Shown here one piece after another: positions 40,673 to 51,117 of a stretch of 60,405 bases of DNA. The notes below the pieces were generated by a model. The model did not search any database, had not been told where the DNA came from, and saw only the letters and a list, made by a program, of their open reading frames with translations. Position numbers and translations under genes: made by a program. Source of the stretch: Polaromonas sp. (GTDB lineage: Bacteria; Pseudomonadota; Gammaproteobacteria; Burkholderiales; Burkholderiaceae_C); the NCBI RefSeq assembly GCF_018780625.1, contig NZ_JADMJK010000074.1, positions 1 to 60,405 on the forward strand, read 5' to 3'. The stretch's first letter is position 1. Each line of letters starts with the position of its first letter.

Positions 40673-40897
40673 ATGGAAACTTCGAACATTCTTCTTTTGG
40701 TGATCAGCTGCACCGTCAGCTTTGGGGTGGGCCGAACGGTCATGCATTTCCGCAGGAAAAAGCGCGAAAAGCAGGCGCAGGAACGCCAGGCGCAAGCCTT
40801 GCGCAATCGACCCCTTGAGGTGGAGTCCAGCAACAAGAGCAAACGAAAACGCCAGCTTCAGCAACTGGCGAAAGAAAGCAAAAGCCGCCAGTCCTGA
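40673..40897 (+). CDS. Small membrane-anchored basic protein
   Basis: 74 residues: one N-terminal membrane helix (NILLLVISCTVSFGVG) followed by a strongly basic, Gln-rich coiled tail (FRRKKREKQAQERQ, SKRKRQLQQLAKESKSRQ). Looks like a single-pass inner-membrane protein with a cytosolic tail, possibly RNA- or ribosome-binding; that is inference. Follows hemW by 16 bases and faces the amyloid-like locus. I do not recognise the family. Confidence 0.55.
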   Translation: METSNILLLVISCTVSFGVGRTVMHFRRKKREKQAQERQAQALRNRPLEVESSNKSKRKRQLQQLAKESKSRQS

Positions 40898-40918: not shown

Positions 40919-41467
40919 TCAGCGGTTTCCGATGGCGCGGGCAATGGCATCGTTGATGCTCGCCTGAAGGTTCAGGTTTCTCAGCGCACCCAAGCCGTTG
41001 GTGCTTGCCTGAATCACCGTTTGGGTTCGGATCGCCTGGTTGTTCAAGGTGTTCTGAATGTAGGTCGCCAGTGGCGCGTTGATGGCAACCGGATCGACCG
41101 TGTTGCCGGGGCCGTTTTGCACCACCTGCGATGCCGATTGCGCGCCGAGTTGCTGGCTCAGTACCACCGCTTGTGCGGGCGTGAGCTTGGCAATGTCGTT
41201 TAGCTGGAACGAGGTGGTGGTGACCAGCCGGTCGTTGATGTAGACCATGCGGCTCATGCCAAAAGACACGACAAGCCCTGAACCCAGGTCGAAGCCGCCG
41301 CGCAACTGGTTGAGCGTGTGGTTGCTGGCAGCAAGCCATACCGTTTCTTTTTGCGGCGGCTGCGCGCCGCTCTGTGCCTGGCTTGCGCCAGCCACCAGCA
41401 AGGCACACAGGCCCATGACGGGCCATTTGCGCCTGACGGCGGCGCGCGGGGGGGGTAGCTTGTTCAT
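40919..41467 (-). CDS. Secreted protein of the Fap-like locus (182 aa)
   Basis: Basic N-terminus then signal peptide WPVMGLCALLVAGASQAQ, cleaved after AQ. Mature part is Gln/Asn/Thr-rich: VVLSQQLGAQSASQVVQNGPGN, LATYIQNTLNNQAIRTQTVI, LGALRNLNLQASINDAIA. The first half (ETVWLAASNHTLNQLRGGF, VSFGMSRMVYINDRLVTTTSF) is beta-rich. Start codon overlaps the C39 peptidase stop (TGATG), so it is the last gene of the leftward four-gene operon. Its place and composition suggest an accessory fibre subunit or assembly factor; no family is recognised. Confidence 0.75.
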   Translation of the reverse strand: MNKLPPPRAAVRRKWPVMGLCALLVAGASQAQSGAQPPQKETVWLAASNHTLNQLRGGFDLGSGLVVSFGMSRMVYINDRLVTTTSFQLNDIAKLTPAQAVVLSQQLGAQSASQVVQNGPGNTVDPVAINAPLATYIQNTLNNQAIRTQTVIQASTNGLGALRNLNLQASINDAIARAIGNR

Positions 41468-42162
41468 CAGAAATCTCCTGGTCCGTGCTTGGGCATCGTC
41501 ACGTCTGAAAGGCCGTGCCGATTGACCCCGGCCGTCAGCGGCGCCTGGGGGGCAGCGCGCCAGTCAGCCGACAGGTTAAAGCGCGCAGAGTCCATGCGGT
41601 TGTGCACGACAAACAGCAGCCCGCTTTGCCACTTGGCCTGAAATGCCTGGCGCGACACGGCGCGTGTCCCGGTGGCCGGGTCGCCAATCAGCACCCGCTC
41701 GCCGCGCAGTCCCTTGACCACGACAAAATGCAGGTAGCCGCTTTCATTGATCAGCACGATGGCGGGCACACCGGCCTCAGCGAGTTTTTCCGGGGGTTGC
41801 TCAAAGCCATCGGCCTCAAAGCCATGCGCCTTCAGAAACCGTTTCATGTCGAGCAGTGAAAATCCCTCTCGCTGGATTTTTGCCTGGTCGCCGTATCTGT
41901 ACATGTGTTCAAACACCATGCTCTCCGTCACGGGATAGCCGTAATGATGGGTGAGCAAGGTCGCCACGGCAGCAGACCCGCAGCTGAAATCGTATTGTTG
42001 CAACATCGTTCCGGCCAGACGTTGCGCGCGAATGCTGGCGACCGGCATCTGCACTCCGCCGGCAACCGAAGGCAGGTAGGCCTGCTGTGCGTCTGCCATG
42101 GAAACAACGGTGCTGGCGACGGCAAACGTGAACGCCAGGGGCAGCTTGGAACAGCGCATCAT
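41467..42162 (-). CDS. Periplasmic C39-family cysteine peptidase (FapD-like)
   Basis: 231 residues with a signal peptide (LPLAFTFAVASTVVSMADA) so it works in the periplasm, unlike the C39 domains of bacteriocin exporters. Catalytic Cys61 in YDFSCGSAAVATLL with a Gln five residues upstream (oxyanion), His145 in YLHFVVVKG and Asp161 in LIGDPATG. In Pseudomonas the fap operon encodes one such enzyme, FapD. Substrates are presumably the small secreted proteins of the same operon. Start from GGAGG-N4-ATGATG; 9 bases after the 125-residue gene. The C-terminal 40 residues are not conserved. Confidence 0.88.
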   Translation of the reverse strand: MMRCSKLPLAFTFAVASTVVSMADAQQAYLPSVAGGVQMPVASIRAQRLAGTMLQQYDFSCGSAAVATLLTHHYGYPVTESMVFEHMYRYGDQAKIQREGFSLLDMKRFLKAHGFEADGFEQPPEKLAEAGVPAIVLINESGYLHFVVVKGLRGERVLIGDPATGTRAVSRQAFQAKWQSGLLFVVHNRMDSARFNLSADWRAAPQAPLTAGVNRHGLSDVTMPKHGPGDF

Positions 42163-42171
42163 GCCCTCCGG

Positions 42172-42549
42172 TCAATTCATCTGCAGATTCAGAATCACGG
42201 CGTTCTGAATCAGCACGTTGGCACCCGAGTTCTGGACCACCAGGGGCAGGCCGCTCATGTTGGAGAAGGCACCGGCGCTGATGGTGTTGGTGCCTGTTGC
42301 CACATCAATGGCGGTATTGCCGGCTGTGGTGCCCGCAAGTTTCATGTCGTTGTAGACCAGGCCACTGCCACCGCGGTAGTCGCCCAGCATGGCCGCTGAA
42401 ACGGGTTTGTCGAACCCGGCGTGGCCCGCGCTGTGCAGGGCGGTAGTTGGGATGAGAGGCTCAATGGCAGAATTTTGAGCAACAACCTGCGTGGACAGCG
42501 TGATTGACAACGCTGTGCAGGCAGGCCCGAAGAAACCGAGAAATTTCAT
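42172..42549 (-). CDS. Small secreted protein of the Fap-like locus (125 aa)
   Basis: Signal peptide MKFLGFFGPACTALSITLST then a mature chain of about 100 residues ending TNTISAGAFSNMSGLPLVVQ and NSGANVLIQNAVILNLQMN. The C-terminal 40 residues share the pattern GTN-x-(I/V)-(S/N)-AG-x-FS...QNSG...L-(I/V)-Q-x2-V with the C-terminus of the Gly-rich protein at 42632, so the two are relatives, comparable to a nucleator and a main subunit (FapB/FapC analogy, inferred). GGGGGA ribosome site; 82 bases after the Gly-rich gene. Confidence 0.75.
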   Translation of the reverse strand: MKFLGFFGPACTALSITLSTQVVAQNSAIEPLIPTTALHSAGHAGFDKPVSAAMLGDYRGGSGLVYNDMKLAGTTAGNTAIDVATGTNTISAGAFSNMSGLPLVVQNSGANVLIQNAVILNLQMN

Positions 42550-42631
42550 TTTTTCCCCCTTTGTTTTTACGGTGCGGGCAAGCCGGCATCGAGCGTGGCC
42601 TGTGGGCCTTGATCGATGCCGGCTGGTGGGT

Positions 42632-43783
42632 TTATTGGCCGATTCCCAGGTTGGCCTGCACGTTCACGCTTTGCTGAACCAGCGAAGAAATGCCGCTGTT
42701 CTGGCTTGCGAGCATGATGCCGGCCGCAGATTGCCCGACGCTGGTCATGGTGTTGGCCATGCTGAAGGTTCCGGCGTTGACGCGGTTGGTGCCGCCATCG
42801 CCACCGCTGCCGCCCTGGCCGACGCCGCCGGTGCCGCCCGCAGCCGTGTTGGTGCCGCCGTTGCCCGCACCGCCTGTGCCGCCCGTGCCACCGCCGCCTG
42901 CACCGCCGTTGCCGGCCGTGTTGCTGCCGTTGGCAGCGCCACCATTGCTGGCGCTGCCGTTGGTGGCTGATCCGCCGGCGCCGCCGGCACCCAAGCCCGC
43001 CGTGCGGGTGCTGGCGCCGCCATTGCTGGCTGCATCACCGCCTGCACCGCCCGCACCGGCCGTGCCGGTGCCGCCGCCAGCGCTGGTGGCACCGCCGCCT
43101 GTGCCGCCTTCACCGCCAGTGCCCGCCAGGGTGCCGCCACTGCCGCCGTTGGCACTGCCACTGGCCGGGCCGGCGTTGGCGTTGCCGCTACGTCCACCAG
43201 CGCCGCCATCGGCTGTCGCCGTGCCGCCGCTGTTGGCGCCGCTGGCGTTGCCGCCAGCACCATAGGCGCCCCTGCCTGCAGTGGCGCTGCCGTTGGCGGC
43301 ACTGCCGTTGGTGGCATTGCCGTTCGAGGCGTTACCGCCCGCCGCACCCACGGCGGCAGCACCGCCAGCACCCGTGCCACCGGTGCCCGAACCAATGCTC
43401 GCGCCACCTTTGCCGGTGCCGCCATAGCCACCGTTGCCCGTACCGCCCGCGGCAGAGCCGGTGTTGTAGGCGCTATTGCCAAGGCCATGCACCATGTTGT
43501 TGCTCACGGTTCCACTCAGGCTGCTGCTGGCCGTGGCCGTGGTCACGTTGAAGGCGTTGCTGAACGTGCCGGAAGACCCGTTGTTCAGCGCAGCCGAACG
43601 TGCGGCGCTGGCAGCGGCGTTGCCCGATCGCTTGTTCAGGCTGCTGTCCGAGTTGCTTTCGGTCGACGTGCTGGTGCTTTCGTTGTTGCCTATGGTGCTT
43701 TGCTGGTCGGTCGTATTTGCAAACGCCACACCGCTCAAGCCAAATGCCACTGCCACAGCCGAAGCCAGAAGTGTCTTTTTCAT
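42632..43783 (-). CDS. Gly/Ala/Asn-rich secreted protein, candidate amyloid subunit
   Basis: 383 residues: signal peptide MKKTLLASAVAVAFGLSGVAFA, a Ser/Thr/Asn-rich N-terminal part with SGTFSNAFNVTTATASSS, a low-complexity centre of roughly 200 residues dominated by GGAGG, GGTGG, NGGA repeats, and a C-terminal part AGTFSMANTMTSVGQSAAG followed by QNSGISSLVQQSV. The two flanks repeat the GTFS-x-A-x-N motif. No Cys. Excellent AGGAGG ribosome site. First gene of the leftward operon, behind a sigma-54 promoter. Likely a surface fibre or matrix protein; resemblance to mycobacterial PE_PGRS is only composition. Confidence 0.8.
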   Translation of the reverse strand: MKKTLLASAVAVAFGLSGVAFANTTDQQSTIGNNESTSTSTESNSDSSLNKRSGNAAASAARSAALNNGSSGTFSNAFNVTTATASSSLSGTVSNNMVHGLGNSAYNTGSAAGGTGNGGYGGTGKGGASIGSGTGGTGAGGAAAVGAAGGNASNGNATNGSAANGSATAGRGAYGAGGNASGANSGGTATADGGAGGRSGNANAGPASGSANGGSGGTLAGTGGEGGTGGGATSAGGGTGTAGAGGAGGDAASNGGASTRTAGLGAGGAGGSATNGSASNGGAANGSNTAGNGGAGGGGTGGTGGAGNGGTNTAAGGTGGVGQGGSGGDGGTNRVNAGTFSMANTMTSVGQSAAGIMLASQNSGISSLVQQSVNVQANLGIGQ

Positions 43784-43860
43784 GGAACCTCCTAAGAGAA
43801 TTTAAGTTGGTTGAAAAACAGTCCTCGTTGAATTGCGTCACTGCAACCCGGCGGCAATTC

Positions 43861-43876
43861 AGCAACTTCGATGCCA
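43861..43876 (-). promoter_or_regulatory. Sigma-54 promoter of the Gly-rich gene
   Basis: Minus strand TGGCATCGAAGTTGCT, matching TGGCACG-N4-TTGCW with GG and GC exactly ten bases apart. Predicted start about 43850, leaving a 67-base leader before the ATG at 43783. A sigma-54 activator gene is in the same locus. Confidence 0.75.
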
Positions 43877-44306
43877 ATTTGTTTTTTTGAGTAGCTAAGT
43901 CATTGATGTCATTGGATAAAACGGCAATTGGCGTGGCGCTGCAAGTCACTGATGGCGATTTTTTGATGACGGACGGCGCCCGGAATGTCACAGATGGTTG
44001 ACGGTCGCCCTGCCGTGCGATGCGGGGCGCCACCTGCCGCAGCACGGTGAAAATTGCCCGCGCAAGGGTGTGGCGCAACCATTGGGATGCAGGCAACGCC
44101 AGTCGCCAGCCGACCGTCTCACGCATGTGACGGTGCTGGCTGCAAGAACAGGTCGGGGTGTCTGATGCATGCCGCCGGAAATCGCCTGCGGAGCCCCGAA
44201 TAGCTTGGGATTTTTAGCATGGTTAGCTCATGCACACGGGCTGTATCCGTTGTGTGACATGGTCATTGAGCGGCCCCGGCTTCAATCGGAAAAATAGGGG
44301 CGGCAC

Positions 44307-44348
44307 TTGATGCCTGTCAATTGCGCCACCCTGATCGTTTCGCAGAAT
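44307..44348 (+). promoter_or_regulatory. FNR box and -10 of the pore gene
   Basis: TTGATGCCTGTCAA at 44307–44320, consensus in both arms, and CAGAAT at 44343–44348. The box centre (44313.5) is 41.5 bases from a start at 44355, the class II geometry. The translation start follows at 44393. Confidence 0.65.
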
Positions 44349-44392
44349 GAGCGTTTGAATTTTCAACAAGCGAAAAAAATGGGGGGAGTTAC

Positions 44393-45694
44393 ATGAAGAA
44401 AAATCACGGTAGCCGGTCTTTGGGCCTGTTGGCTTGTACCTCACTGGCGATGGCGGCCACGGCTGCTCATGCGCAGGGCGCAGCGGCGGCAAGTGATGAT
44501 CCCGGTGTGCGCATCGAGCGGCTGCAGCAGCAGTTGACCGAGCAAAACCGGCAGATTGAAACGCTCAGGCAAGCCGTGGCAGACCAGGAGGCGCGCCACC
44601 GTGAACTGCAGCGGGCGCTCGGCCAGGAGCCCCGCGCTGTGGCCGGTCGGGCTGAAGGCGCCAGGACGCCGGACGCGGACAGTGCGTCCGATACATCCCA
44701 GCGCCCCGTGCGGGTCGGCACTGCACCCCGCCAGGACACCCAGCCGCCGGCGGTGGCGCCTTTGTTTGACCAGCCCGGAATCCTCACGCCCAAAGGCAAG
44801 TATTCGCTGGAGCCCTCGGTGCAATACAGCTACTCGTCGAGCAACCGCGTGGCGCTGGTGGGGTACACGATTATTCCGGCATTGCTGATCGGCTTGGTGG
44901 ATGTGCGCGAGGTCAAGCGAAGCACCTTCACCGGCGCCTTGACGACGCGCTATGGGCTGAGCAACCGATTGGAACTGGAAGCCAAGCTGCCCTATGTGTA
45001 CCGCTCCGACGCGACGATCAGCCGCGAACTCGGCGGCGGGTCGGCAACGGACCGTGTGTTCAACAGCAGCGGCCGCGCGATGGGCGACGTTGAACTGGCA
45101 GCACGCTATCAGCTCAATGACGGCGGCGCGAACAAGCCCTATCTGATCGGTTCCATGCGCTTCAAGTCACGCACCGGCAAGGATCCGTTCGAAGTCGTGA
45201 CAGACTGCATCACGCGCTGCGAAGGCAGCGAGACCACGGGCCTGCCGCTCGATTTGCCCACAGGTTCCGGCTTTTACTCGTTGCAGCCCGGCCTGACCTG
45301 GCTGTTTCCGTCAGACCCCGCCGTATTTTTTGGCGGCGTCAGCTACACCTACAACTTCAAGCGCAGCGACGTCAGCCGCCTGGTGCGCGGCGGTGAGCGG
45401 GAATTGATTGGCACCATCGAGCCCGGCGGCATCTTTGGCATCAATTTCGGCATGGGACTTGCGCTGAACGACAAATCAACGTTCAGCATGGGCGTTGACC
45501 TGAACTCCGTCGGCCGCACGCGCCGCAACGGCACGCCGCTGGAGAGTTCCGTTCGCACCCAACTGGCCAGCCTGCTGCTGGGCTATTCCTATCGCTACAG
45601 CGACAAGACCAACTTCAACGTGACCGTGGGCGCGGGCCTCACGCGGGACACGCCCGACCTGACGATCGGTCTGCGGATTCCGATCTCTTTTTGA
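44393..45694 (+). CDS. FapF-like outer-membrane pore with N-terminal coiled coil
   Basis: 433 residues, the size of Pseudomonas FapF. Signal peptide to about residue 28 (SLAMAATAAHAQ), coiled coil 38–75 (IERLQQQLTEQNRQIETLRQ), a Pro/Asp-rich linker, then a beta-barrel from about 120 to the C-terminal Phe (LRIPISF, the outer-membrane insertion signature). Barrel strands alternate as in YSLEPSVQYSYSSSNRVALV, TRYGLSNRLELEAKLPYVYR, LIGSMRFKSRTG, SMGVDLNSVGRTRRNG. A Cys pair (VTDCITRCEG) may close a loop. FapF is a trimeric gated amyloid pore with the same plan. Followed after 9 bases by the activator gene. Confidence 0.8.
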   Translation: MKKNHGSRSLGLLACTSLAMAATAAHAQGAAAASDDPGVRIERLQQQLTEQNRQIETLRQAVADQEARHRELQRALGQEPRAVAGRAEGARTPDADSASDTSQRPVRVGTAPRQDTQPPAVAPLFDQPGILTPKGKYSLEPSVQYSYSSSNRVALVGYTIIPALLIGLVDVREVKRSTFTGALTTRYGLSNRLELEAKLPYVYRSDATISRELGGGSATDRVFNSSGRAMGDVELAARYQLNDGGANKPYLIGSMRFKSRTGKDPFEVVTDCITRCEGSETTGLPLDLPTGSGFYSLQPGLTWLFPSDPAVFFGGVSYTYNFKRSDVSRLVRGGERELIGTIEPGGIFGINFGMGLALNDKSTFSMGVDLNSVGRTRRNGTPLESSVRTQLASLLLGYSYRYSDKTNFNVTVGAGLTRDTPDLTIGLRIPISF

Positions 45695-45703
45695 AGAGCT
45701 TTC

Positions 45704-47044
45704 ATGGCGTTGCGAAAAATCCTGTCCGTCTGCGTCGGATCCGGTTCTGAAGAGTTGTCCGACCATATTTTTGCGAGTGGCTGGATGGCACTGTCAGCAA
45801 CCGATGTGAGCATCGCACGGCGCATACAGGCGCAACAAGACGTGCAGGTCGGCGTGCTGCTGCTCGCGGATTCTTCGCCCGGACAACTCAGCGAGGTCGA
45901 GGAGTGGCTGAGGTTGTCAAGCCGGATGGAGTGGGTAGGCGTGTTTCCTGCCGAGGCGCTCGCGTCACCCGTTCTGCGCGAGCTGGTCCTGAGCTGCTTT
46001 TTTGACTATCACACGCTGCCCGTGGACTGGCGCGTACTCAACCTCACGCTCGGTCACGCCTTTCGCCGTGCCTTGCTGCGCGGCCAGGGCGACGGCCACC
46101 TGAAGGCCGAGGGCAGCATGGGCATGGTCGGGCACAGTGCAGCGGTTGTGCGCTTGCAGCAGCAGATACGCAAGGTGGCGGCCACCGACGCGCCAGTCCT
46201 TATTGGCGGGGAGAGCGGCAGCGGCAAAGAGCTGGCCGCCCGTGCCATTCACCAGTGCTCCAGGCGCGCCGCCGGCCCTTTTGTTGCCGTCAATTGCGGT
46301 GCCATTGCGCCCGCGCTGATTCAGTCGGAGTTGTTTGGCCATGAGCGCGGCTCGTTCACGGGCGCAACGGCAGGCAAGCTCGGACTGATTGAGGCAGCCA
46401 GTGGCGGCACTCTCTTTCTGGACGAAATTGCCGACCTGCCGCTTGAACTGCAGACCAATCTGCTGCGTTTCCTGCAGGAGCACACCATTCATCGCGTGGG
46501 CTCTACCCGCAGCCTGCAGATGGATGTTCGTGTGGTGGCCGCCTCGCACATGGACCTGGCGGCGGCGGCGGCGGCTGGCCGGTTTCGGGAAGACCTGTTT
46601 TATCGCCTGAACGTATTGCCCCTCGTGGTGCCGTCCCTGCGTGAACGCATTTCCGACGTACCCGAGTTGGCGCAGCATTTTTTACGCGCTAGCATGGCCG
46701 ACCAGCAGCCGCGGCGGGTGGAGGGCTTCAGCCGGCAGGCCATGACCGCCATGATGTCCCACCCCTGGCCGGGCAACGTGCGCGAGTTGTTCAACCGCGT
46801 GCAGCGCGCAGCAGTCATGACCGACCATCGCCTGATCACCCCGGCTGATCTGGGGCTGGCCGTCGAAAACCCTGCCGGTCTTGAGCTGGACAAAGCGCGA
46901 ACCCTGGCAGAGCGCGATGTGATTGCGCTGACCCTGGGCCGCGTTGGCCGCAACATCACCCATGCGGCACGCGAGCTGGGCATCTCGCGCATGACCCTGT
47001 ACCGGCTGATGGACAAACACGGCCTCGCGCCGCGCGCTGGGTGA
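45704..47044 (+). CDS. VpsR-like sigma-54-dependent transcription activator
   Basis: 446 residues. N-terminal domain about 1–140 without the receiver Asp pattern but with FDYHTLPVDWRVL, the motif of VpsR/BerB-type activators. AAA+ domain 147–375: Walker A GGESGSGKELAA, sigma-54 loop GSFTGA (variant of GAFTGA), Walker B FLDEIADLP, sensor II region WPGNVREL. C-terminal Fis-type helix-turn-helix (NITHAARELGISRMTLYRLM). VpsR and BerB respond to cyclic-di-GMP, known of the family; I infer the same here. Cotranscribed with the pore gene, so it would feed back on the divergent sigma-54 promoter. Confidence 0.9.
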   Translation: MALRKILSVCVGSGSEELSDHIFASGWMALSATDVSIARRIQAQQDVQVGVLLLADSSPGQLSEVEEWLRLSSRMEWVGVFPAEALASPVLRELVLSCFFDYHTLPVDWRVLNLTLGHAFRRALLRGQGDGHLKAEGSMGMVGHSAAVVRLQQQIRKVAATDAPVLIGGESGSGKELAARAIHQCSRRAAGPFVAVNCGAIAPALIQSELFGHERGSFTGATAGKLGLIEAASGGTLFLDEIADLPLELQTNLLRFLQEHTIHRVGSTRSLQMDVRVVAASHMDLAAAAAAGRFREDLFYRLNVLPLVVPSLRERISDVPELAQHFLRASMADQQPRRVEGFSRQAMTAMMSHPWPGNVRELFNRVQRAAVMTDHRLITPADLGLAVENPAGLELDKARTLAERDVIALTLGRVGRNITHAARELGISRMTLYRLMDKHGLAPRAG

Positions 47045-49353: not shown

Positions 49354-51117
49354 TTAAAACAAAAAGTAGCGCTGCGTCATCGGCAGGCTGGTCGCCGGCT
49401 CGCAGGTCAGCAGTTGCCCGTCGGCGCGGACCAGGTAGCTTTGGGCGTCGATTTCCATTTTGGGCAGGTAATGGTTATGCACCATGTGCTGCTTGCGCAC
49501 GCCGCGTATGTTTTTCACCGCGCTCAGCGTCTTGGCCAGGCCGAAGCGCTCCTTGATGCCGGCGGCCAGCCCGGCCTGCGAGACAAAGGTCAGCGAGCCC
49601 TTGGCCACTGCGCCGCCGAAAGCGCCGAACATGGGCCGGTAATGCACCGGCTGCGGCGTTGGAATCGAGGCGTTCGGGTCGCCCATGGCGGCCATGGCAA
49701 TAAACCCGCCTTTCAGGATGATGGACGGCTTGATGCCGAAAAACGCCGGCTTCCAGACCACCAGGTCGGCGAACTTGCCGACTTCGATGGAGCCGACCTC
49801 GTGCGAAATGCCGTGGGCAATCGCCGGGTTGATGGTGTATTTACTGATGTAGCGCTTGACGCGGAAATTGTCGTTGCGGGGATCTTGCTCGACCGAAGAG
49901 CCCCCACCCCAGCCCTCTCCCAGCGGGGGAGGGGGCAAGAGATGGCCGCGCTGCTGCTTCATCTTGTGGGCGTTCTGCCAGGTGCGGATGATGACTTCGC
50001 CGACCCGGCCCATGGCCTGGCTGTCGCTGCTCATCATGCTGATGGCGCCCAGGTCGTGCAGCACGTCTTCGGCGGCAATGGTTTCCTTGCGGATGCGGCT
50101 TTCGGCAAAGGCCAGGTCTTCGGCAATGCCCGCGTCCAGGTGGTGGCAGACCATCAGCATGTCGACATGCTCGTCGAGCGTGTTGACGGTGTAGGGCATG
50201 GTCGGGTTGGTGGACGAGGGCAGGAAGTTCGCCTCCCCGACGACGCGCAAAATGTCGGGCGCATGGCCGCCGCCCGCGCCTTCGGTGTGAAAGGCGCAGA
50301 GAGAGCGGCCCTTGGTGGCGGCAATCGTGTTCTCGACAAAGCCCGACTCGTTGAGCGTGTCGCTGTGAATCGCCACCTGCACATCGGCATCTTCGGCCAC
50401 ATCCAGGCAGTTGCTGATGGCCGCCGGCGTCGTGCCCCAGTCTTCATGCAGCTTCAGGCCAATCACGCCGGCGTTGACCTGCTCGTGCAGCGCGTCGGGC
50501 AGGCTGGCATTGCCCTTGCCCAGAAAGCCCAGGTTCATCGGGAAGGCATCGGCCGCCTGCAGCATGCGCTCTATGTTCCACGGCCCCGGCGTGCAGGTGG
50601 TGGCAAAGGTGCCGGTGGCCGGGCCGGTGCCGCCGCCCAGCATGGTGGTGACGCCGCTGGTCAATGCTTCCTCAATTTGCTGCGGGCAGATGAAGTGGAT
50701 GTGCGAGTCGATGCCGCCAGCGGTAACTAACATGCCTTCGCAGCTGATGATCTCTGTGCCGGGGCCGATGATGATGTCCACGCCCGGCTGCACGTCGGGG
50801 TTGCCGGCCTTGCCGATGGCTTTGACGCGCCCGCCCTTGAGGCCAATGTCGGCCTTGACGATGCCCCAGTGGTCGAGGATGAGCGCGTTCGTCATCACCG
50901 TGTCCATCGCGCCTTCGGCATTGGTTGTTTGCGACTGGGCCATGCCGTCACGAATGGTTTTTCCGCCGCCGAACTTGACTTCTTCGCCGTAGCTGCCGGC
51001 GCGCAGCGTGTAGTCGGCCTCCACCTCGATCATCAGGTCAGTGTCGGCCAGCCGCAGCCGGTCGCCCACCGTGGGGCCAAACATTTCTGCGTAGGCACGT
51101 CTGCCAATCGTTGCCAT
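49354..51117 (-). CDS. ureC: Urease alpha subunit, with an in-frame insertion
   Basis: 587 residues against 567–573 usual. Nickel ligands [13 protein letters not shown] (carbamylated Lys), [21 protein letters not shown], flap VCHHLD with the Cys, and SSDSQAMGR Asp are all intact, so the enzyme should be active. Between MKQQRG and [11 protein letters not shown] there is an extra [20 protein letters not shown], encoded by a GC-rich palindromic element (49901–49937). The site is a surface-exposed loop upstream of the conserved NDNF segment in Klebsiella urease (recalled). ATG overlaps the ureB stop (TAATG). Confidence 0.96.
49901..49937. repeat. Palindromic repeat-like insertion within ureC
   Basis: CCCCCACCCCAGCCCTCTCC followed by CAGCGGGGGAGGGGGC: stem GCCCTCTCCC (49912–49921) with GGGGAGGGGGC (49926–49936), loop AGCG. 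This CCCTCTCCC/GGGAGAGGG type is a common intergenic interspersed repeat in many proteobacteria. Here it is read through in frame without a stop. Confidence 0.65.

Follow-up and report, generated by a model that had tools for sequence, protein, structure and literature searches.

The closest described relative of the locus presented here is the Fap functional-amyloid system of Pseudomonas (fapABCDEF). Already in print are the occurrence of fap in Beta-, Gamma- and Deltaproteobacteria, the frequent loss of fapA and separation of fapF in known operons and the membership of FapD and FapF in larger families (accessible parts of PMC3792158), as well as 25 more fap genera and FapD–FapF pairs in five further phyla (PMC6173800). 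In GTDB-wide surveys from 2025, which require a FapB/C repeat profile, the repeat number is nearly always three, and Fap is concluded to be fixed at that number (PMC12392863, PMC12822426). According to the accessible text of PMC5557850, FapD activity is required for secretion and FapE alone was found fully processed at its N terminus; Fap proteins are described there as being without canonical C39 sequences, yet GG/GA motifs in FapE suggest processing, a cut in FapF is named as the other possibility and the FapD target is called unclear. In PMC12822426, FapE and FapF are named as the presumed FapD substrates, and the accessible portions of these two papers state no exact FapD cleavage site. 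In P. fluorescens PF07, BrfA is a c-di-GMP-sensing enhancer-binding activator of fapA (PMC13101488).

Here we describe a six-gene locus (genes A to F) in a 60,405-nucleotide stretch of Polaromonas sp. DNA, the whole of which we call the window; judged from its sequence, the locus is probably a divergent sister branch of Fap. As in Pseudomonas Fap, there is a FapF pore, a FapD C39 peptidase, a FapE-like protein and subunits with Fap-type repeats, in the order subunits–FapD–FapE–FapF, and an activator like F stands beside canonical loci too. It differs from Fap in that its subunits have a Gly-rich body and a single repeat (four in 3 of 93) rather than three, FapF is divergently oriented, the leader mostly ends in RGG rather than RG[R/K], and the FapF clade is separate. 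This sister branch is real, conserved and widespread, but it is not a canonical Fap operon, since the three repeats are not found. All six open reading frames (ORFs) claimed by a first-pass annotation of the window are present (Table 1), and its reading of them as a Fap-type unit homologous to Pseudomonas Fap, with a FapF pore, a FapD-type peptidase, secreted subunits and its own sigma-54 activator, held up. Genes E and F, separated by 9 bp, run rightward, and D, C, B and A run leftward. Translations read by eye indicate a hemW-like gene beyond the low-numbered end of the locus and, beyond the other end, urease genes, with a tRNA-Ser in between.

Table 1. Genes and sequence features of the locus (window positions; aa, amino acids).
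Feature	Positions	Strand	Basis or remark
A: FapE-like (remote) secreted protein, 182 aa	40919-41467	-	ORF call, leader, profile comparison
B: C39 peptidase, FapD homologue, signal peptide by eye, 231 aa	41467-42162	-	Pfam, NCBIfam
C: small subunit, signal peptide by eye, 125 aa	42172-42549	-	Module and RGG leader
D: candidate major secreted subunit (FapB/C-like), signal peptide by eye, 383 aa	42632-43783	-	
E: FapF-type outer-membrane pore, signal peptide by eye, 433 aa	44393-45694	+	
F: VpsR-domain sigma-54 activator, 446 aa	45704-47044	+	Domain search
Fap-type repeat module of D, residues 332-380	42644-42790	-	
Fap-type module of C, residues 77-125	42175-42321	-	
Double-glycine leader of C, residues 50-61 (RGG = 59-61)	42367-42402	-	
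Double-glycine leader of A, residues 47-58 (RGG = 56-58)	41294-41329	-	
Sigma-54 -24/-12 promoter candidate TGGCATCGAAGTTGCT	43861-43876	-	77 bp upstream of D start codon
Terminator-like hairpin 3' of A	40850-40870	-	Scan total of such sites not above chance

Based on its profile matches, E is a FapF homologue. Residues 113–433 match the crystallised FapF barrel in the PDB (4e-38), and residues 19–433 match the NCBIfam FapF model at 8.6e-55 and 186 bits, relative to a model cut-off of 700 bits that was reached in none of the 369 genomes of our class sample. A coiled-coil-like stretch (about residues 40–79) is followed by the barrel (about 113–433). When E was aligned to the PDB FapF and to its relatives (alignment A1, whose row L003 holds, as judged by eye, an unrelated stretch upstream of the barrel), FapF R157 corresponded to R186, invariant among 15 rows, and FapF E111 and K401 to E140 and R428, each nearly invariant; the second PTG motif of FapF is also retained. 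The plug residues E98 and F102 are not conserved in E, which has Q127 and L131 instead (FapF numbering and roles from the accessible part of PMC5557850). Elsewhere, the pore of another Polaromonas sp. locus (L065) is 98% identical to E.

The same kind of evidence makes B a FapD homologue. It contains a C39 domain (Pfam, 3.8e-22), and its best named NCBIfam family is FapD (2.2e-38, 132 bits, below the 330-bit cut-off). The predicted catalytic residues Cys61, His145 and Asp161 are kept in 112, 113 and 113, respectively, of 113 B-type peptidases. The annotation had proposed a FapF-like coiled-coil/beta-barrel pore and a C39 peptidase with a FapD counterpart, and both identifications agree with these matches.

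The secreted proteins D and C share a C-terminal module of ~50 residues, which in D follows a body rich in Gly, Ala, Ser, Thr and Asn. Family searches returned nothing for A and C at E ≤ 1 and only two matches for D, both at E > 0.007 and below cut-off. A profile started from the 52 C-terminal residues of D detected about 200 copies of the module, spread over D-like and C-like proteins of 94 of 109 loci. By hhalign, it lines up in register with the canonical 36-residue Fap repeat (E = 5.8e-6) at a score of 24.9; 150 column shuffles reached at most 13.9. When the module profile was run on the 1528 ORFs of 20 canonical-type loci, nine proteins matched at E < 0.05, the best at 2.5e-8, all of them FapB-sized (210–254 residues) and bearing three canonical repeats. 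In the reverse direction, the canonical repeat profile, run on 8521 ORFs of this branch, had no match at E ≤ 1e-3, and 21 of its 22 weak matches (E ≤ 10) were C or D proteins. An alignment of C proteins only (47 rows) scored 17.1 against the canonical repeat, barely above its shuffles (up to 15.9). Taken as profile evidence, these comparisons make the D and C modules homologues of the Fap (FapB) repeat, remotely; the three imperfect repeats of FapB/FapC are absent from both proteins, which have one module each and remote homology only. The annotation's statement that the fibre proteins share no obvious sequence with FapC thus gives way to a remote, FapB-like Fap repeat.

Its second argument for a new branch, the missing FapA, fares no better, because fapA loss and a separated fapF are both common in known operons (PMC3792158, in the text accessible) and neither marks a new branch. 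The absence itself has become uncertain, as C has a FapA-like leader and size: compared with 7 FapA rows, C scored 25.4 (shuffles up to 15.1), with the alignment confined to the leader stretch, and the FapA profile at 1e-3 matched no A or C protein and one other ORF.

Subunit architecture varies at a few loci. Four-module subunits, with linkers and 8.5–11% Gly, are encoded at L164 (6393–7304) and at L172 (4558–5463 and 7958–8944), the latter thus carrying two such genes. Two nearby D-type subunit genes occur in each of L085, L100, L104, L113 and L128, which suggests subunit duplication.

In protein A, a leader motif ending in RGGF precedes a Q/N segment that is a homologue of the C module; the two proteins A and C are paralogues (E = 8.5e-11). 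When compared with 16 hand-picked FapE rows, A scored 43.3 (100 shuffles, up to 20.9) across the leader and the segment that follows; against the canonical repeat it did not rise above shuffles (39 of 150 equally high). In the 8521 ORFs of this branch, the 12 listed matches of the canonical FapE profile were all A or C proteins (six assigned by tag, six by position), none of them at 1e-5. A therefore appears FapE-like, although only remotely so by these comparisons.

A C39-type leader, defined by a regular expression, was present in 53/56 A proteins, 56/80 C proteins and 128/10179 other ORFs, and in 0/93 D proteins within the first 120 residues; with duplicate loci counted once, the figures were 50/53 for A and 53/76 for C. 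These proteins were located by position: of 109 loci, many of them on short contigs, 56 yielded A and 80 yielded C. For the C proteins, 24 of 80 fell outside the pattern, and a looser rule gave leader ends of GG in 58, G[K/R] in 12, another G pair in 4 and none in 6. All 28 aligned A proteins (alignment A3, from 29 eligible, one fragment omitted) have L(-7), G(-2) and G(-1), and among 47 chosen C proteins (alignment A2, from 57 eligible) these residues occur in 47, 47 and 45. Because A2 omits L100, L104, L111, L112 and L113, which end in GK, and L118, which ends in GA, its 45/47 favours GG, and 56/80 is the figure to use for C.

The A and C leaders fit the C39 consensus L(-12)xxxE(-8)L(-7)xxxxG(-2)G(-1) (accessible part of PMC6959990) except for E(-8), which is not conserved. 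In low-confidence AlphaFold2 models (mean pLDDT 57.9 for C and 62.2 for A), a short helix spans positions -10 to -4 before the GG (residues 52–58 of C and 49–55 of A); the PCAT leader is also helical at comparable positions (PMC6959990). Canonical FapE has G(-2) followed by R or K at -1 in 16/16 rows, with L or M(-7) and E(-8) in 10 of 16, and the FapE proteins of the canonical loci L033–L035 all end in RGK, for a total of 19/19 with RG[R/K]. That canonical FapE shares the leader nominates its RG[R/K] end, and RGG in this branch, as the proposed FapD-type cleavage site, a prediction. The conserved leader would thereby turn both the target of FapD and the position of its cut into a site prediction for the two branches.

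Gene F encodes a VpsR domain, a sigma-54 AAA domain and a Fis-type helix-turn-helix. We scanned for sigma-54 sites (score ≥9 of 11) from 450 bp before to 60 bp after the called D start and found one for 67/96 D genes compared to 3/96 on the reverse strand as a control, or 63/89 and 2/89 after repeats and C-type rows were removed; upstream of E, a site was found in 7/87. Across the whole window such sites were not enriched (18 versus 21 expected), so that only the conserved position before D counts, and sigma-70 and terminator scans of the window were at chance level. A sigma-54 site before the subunit gene matches a VpsR-type activator such as F, which the annotation had called VpsR-like.

Activators like F, called at ≥150 bits (lower-stringency matches at E < 1e-20 could be any sigma-54 activator), lie near the pore in only 47/74 loci and adjoin 15/17 canonical loci, with the VpsR domain confirmed in 5 of the latter. 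In all, 10/10 neighbouring activators checked have this domain, half of them next to canonical fap and half next to this branch. In pairing a VpsR/sigma-54 activator with a sigma-54 promoter ahead of the subunit genes, the locus agrees with a BrfA-type regulator. BrfA, which we set beside F by its description in the accessible part of PMC13101488, is likewise an enhancer-binding activator tied to a fap operon; by this analogy F may have a BrfA-like role and may bind c-di-GMP.

The gene set is conserved across the branch. At least 7.5 kb was available on each side of E in 74 loci, and three of these (L033–L035) are canonical fap, leaving 71. Within 9 kb, 65/71 combine B, A and C with two or more proteins bearing the D/C module (64/70 with one repeated pore removed), a figure that describes this branch and not all FapF relatives because most loci were chosen for similarity to E; 43 of the 65 also have an F-like activator. 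The grouping of these genes is therefore not due to chance, and the co-occurrence of the six families, which the annotation had put forward as a check, was observed for B, A, C and the modules.

Phylogenies were consistent with a separate lineage. In a tree of 84 FapF-type barrels (from 133 loci, near-copies removed by a hand list), a single label change separates canonical fap from this branch, and without the very long row L177 the 20 canonical rows form one side of a branch with support 100. The peptidase tree (78 loci) also has one label change (support 87). Both are quick, unrooted trees with several other long rows. In the first of them, FapF pores divide into a canonical clade and the clade of this branch; with homologous pore, peptidase and repeat in conserved order, the locus belongs to a wide-sense Fap superfamily as a sister branch.

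Within the genus, this branch occurs in 9/37 Polaromonas genomes and canonical three-repeat fap in two (G004 and G026). The clusters in those two genomes (L034 and L033, respectively) each encode two three-repeat proteins, with no match of this branch's pore. Genome G072 carries one locus of each kind (L153, L169). In the class sample, where we examined 33 of the 34 pore matches at ≥111 bits besides the window's own, this branch was found in 12 genomes besides the window's own and canonical repeats in 16. A homologue of C was present in 14/398 phylum genomes, the window's own included. Among the best 80 of at least 517 relatives, hosts include Variovorax, Massilia, Cupriavidus, Paraburkholderia, Pandoraea, Undibacterium and Aromatoleum, and also Lysobacter, Dyella and Rhodanobacter. 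The gene set is carried by a 2.1-Mb Photobacterium plasmid and, in weaker form, by an alphaproteobacterial plasmid (Croceicoccus, L005). The branch is accordingly not solely betaproteobacterial, contrary to what the annotation had proposed. Overall, that interpretation stands for the Fap-type homologous unit and fails or goes too far on unrelated fibre proteins, novelty by FapA loss and restriction to Betaproteobacteria.

On a 136-kb plasmid of Vibrio sp. SCSIO 43009 (L006), we found a pore, a C-type module, an A-like protein and a peptidase split over two frames, together with a gene annotated as a terminase. No repeat protein is encoded within the examined part of L148, a locus of canonical type.

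Fap-like working of this system is likely, by homology. We infer that a biofilm signal, probably c-di-GMP as for BrfA, switches on F, which would activate the sigma-54 promoter upstream of D. The Sec route would then carry D, C, B and A into the periplasm, where peptidase B would dock on the leaders of A and C and cut after RGG, leaving a 124-residue A and a 64-residue C that is little more than one repeat. The trimeric, plugged barrel of E would be the exit path for D, C and A. Outside the cell, the C-terminal Fap-type modules, one per subunit, might stack as the cross-beta core of a fibre, with C as its starter or cap and the Gly-rich bodies as its coat.

A different product is conceivable, in that FapF/FapD-type machinery may export a non-amyloid matrix or coat protein whose module serves as a tag for secretion or anchoring and whose working part is the silk-like, Gly-rich body. 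Such a tag would explain why the module occurs once, mostly at the very C terminus, in 90/93 D-like proteins (191–1105 residues long, median Gly content 27%). We nonetheless consider this unlikely, given that the module is homologous to the FapB repeat and similar FapC repeats form the fibre core (PMC12822426, in its accessible part), and that the three linker-separated, Gly-poorer four-module proteins of L164 and L172 follow the repeat-and-linker plan of FapC.

Other secretion systems share single components with the locus. PCAT/ComA-type C39 transporters combine a C39 domain with a double-glycine leader having L(-7), G(-2) and G(-1), and a secreted bacteriocin or signal peptide would follow the same logic of leader, peptidase and 64-residue product. 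However, B is free-standing and has a signal sequence, the six genes include no ABC transporter, the precursors have Sec-type signal sequences by eye and the large D protein contains the same Fap-type module as the predicted product, all of which makes such a peptide system very improbable. Marginally less credible still is a pilus-type system like Acinetobacter FilA-F. Its FilB C39 and FilC pore are related to B and E, FilB being the second NCBIfam match of B (1e-36) and FilC matching E (8e-23), both below cut-off, but B and E match FapD and FapF better, and A, C and D match no Fil model in NCBIfam, where no homologue of a Fil subunit turned up. Curli likewise have Q/N-rich fibre repeats and outer-membrane export, but no Csg family appeared among the matches of the six proteins (for F, among the best 25 of 32 NCBIfam rows).

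Returning to the sister branch of Fap, we rate at even chances that it is a second amyloid lineage with a single repeat per subunit, a Gly-rich coat and a C39 peptidase that cuts a true double-glycine leader in the periplasm. If so, Fap would not be ‘evolutionarily fixed’ at three repeats, and FapD would cut FapE, and perhaps FapA, after an RG[G/R/K] site. This branch escapes a FapB/C-type repeat profile, as tested with the profile built in this analysis rather than published ones. We found no description of it in the searched text of open PMC papers.

Finally, outside the locus, the ureC-like ORF at 49354–51117 contains a segment (49894–49942, minus strand) that looks like an in-frame insert of 19 proline/glycine-rich, repeat-like residues in the UreC-like frame; a 30-base piece of it is single-copy in the window.
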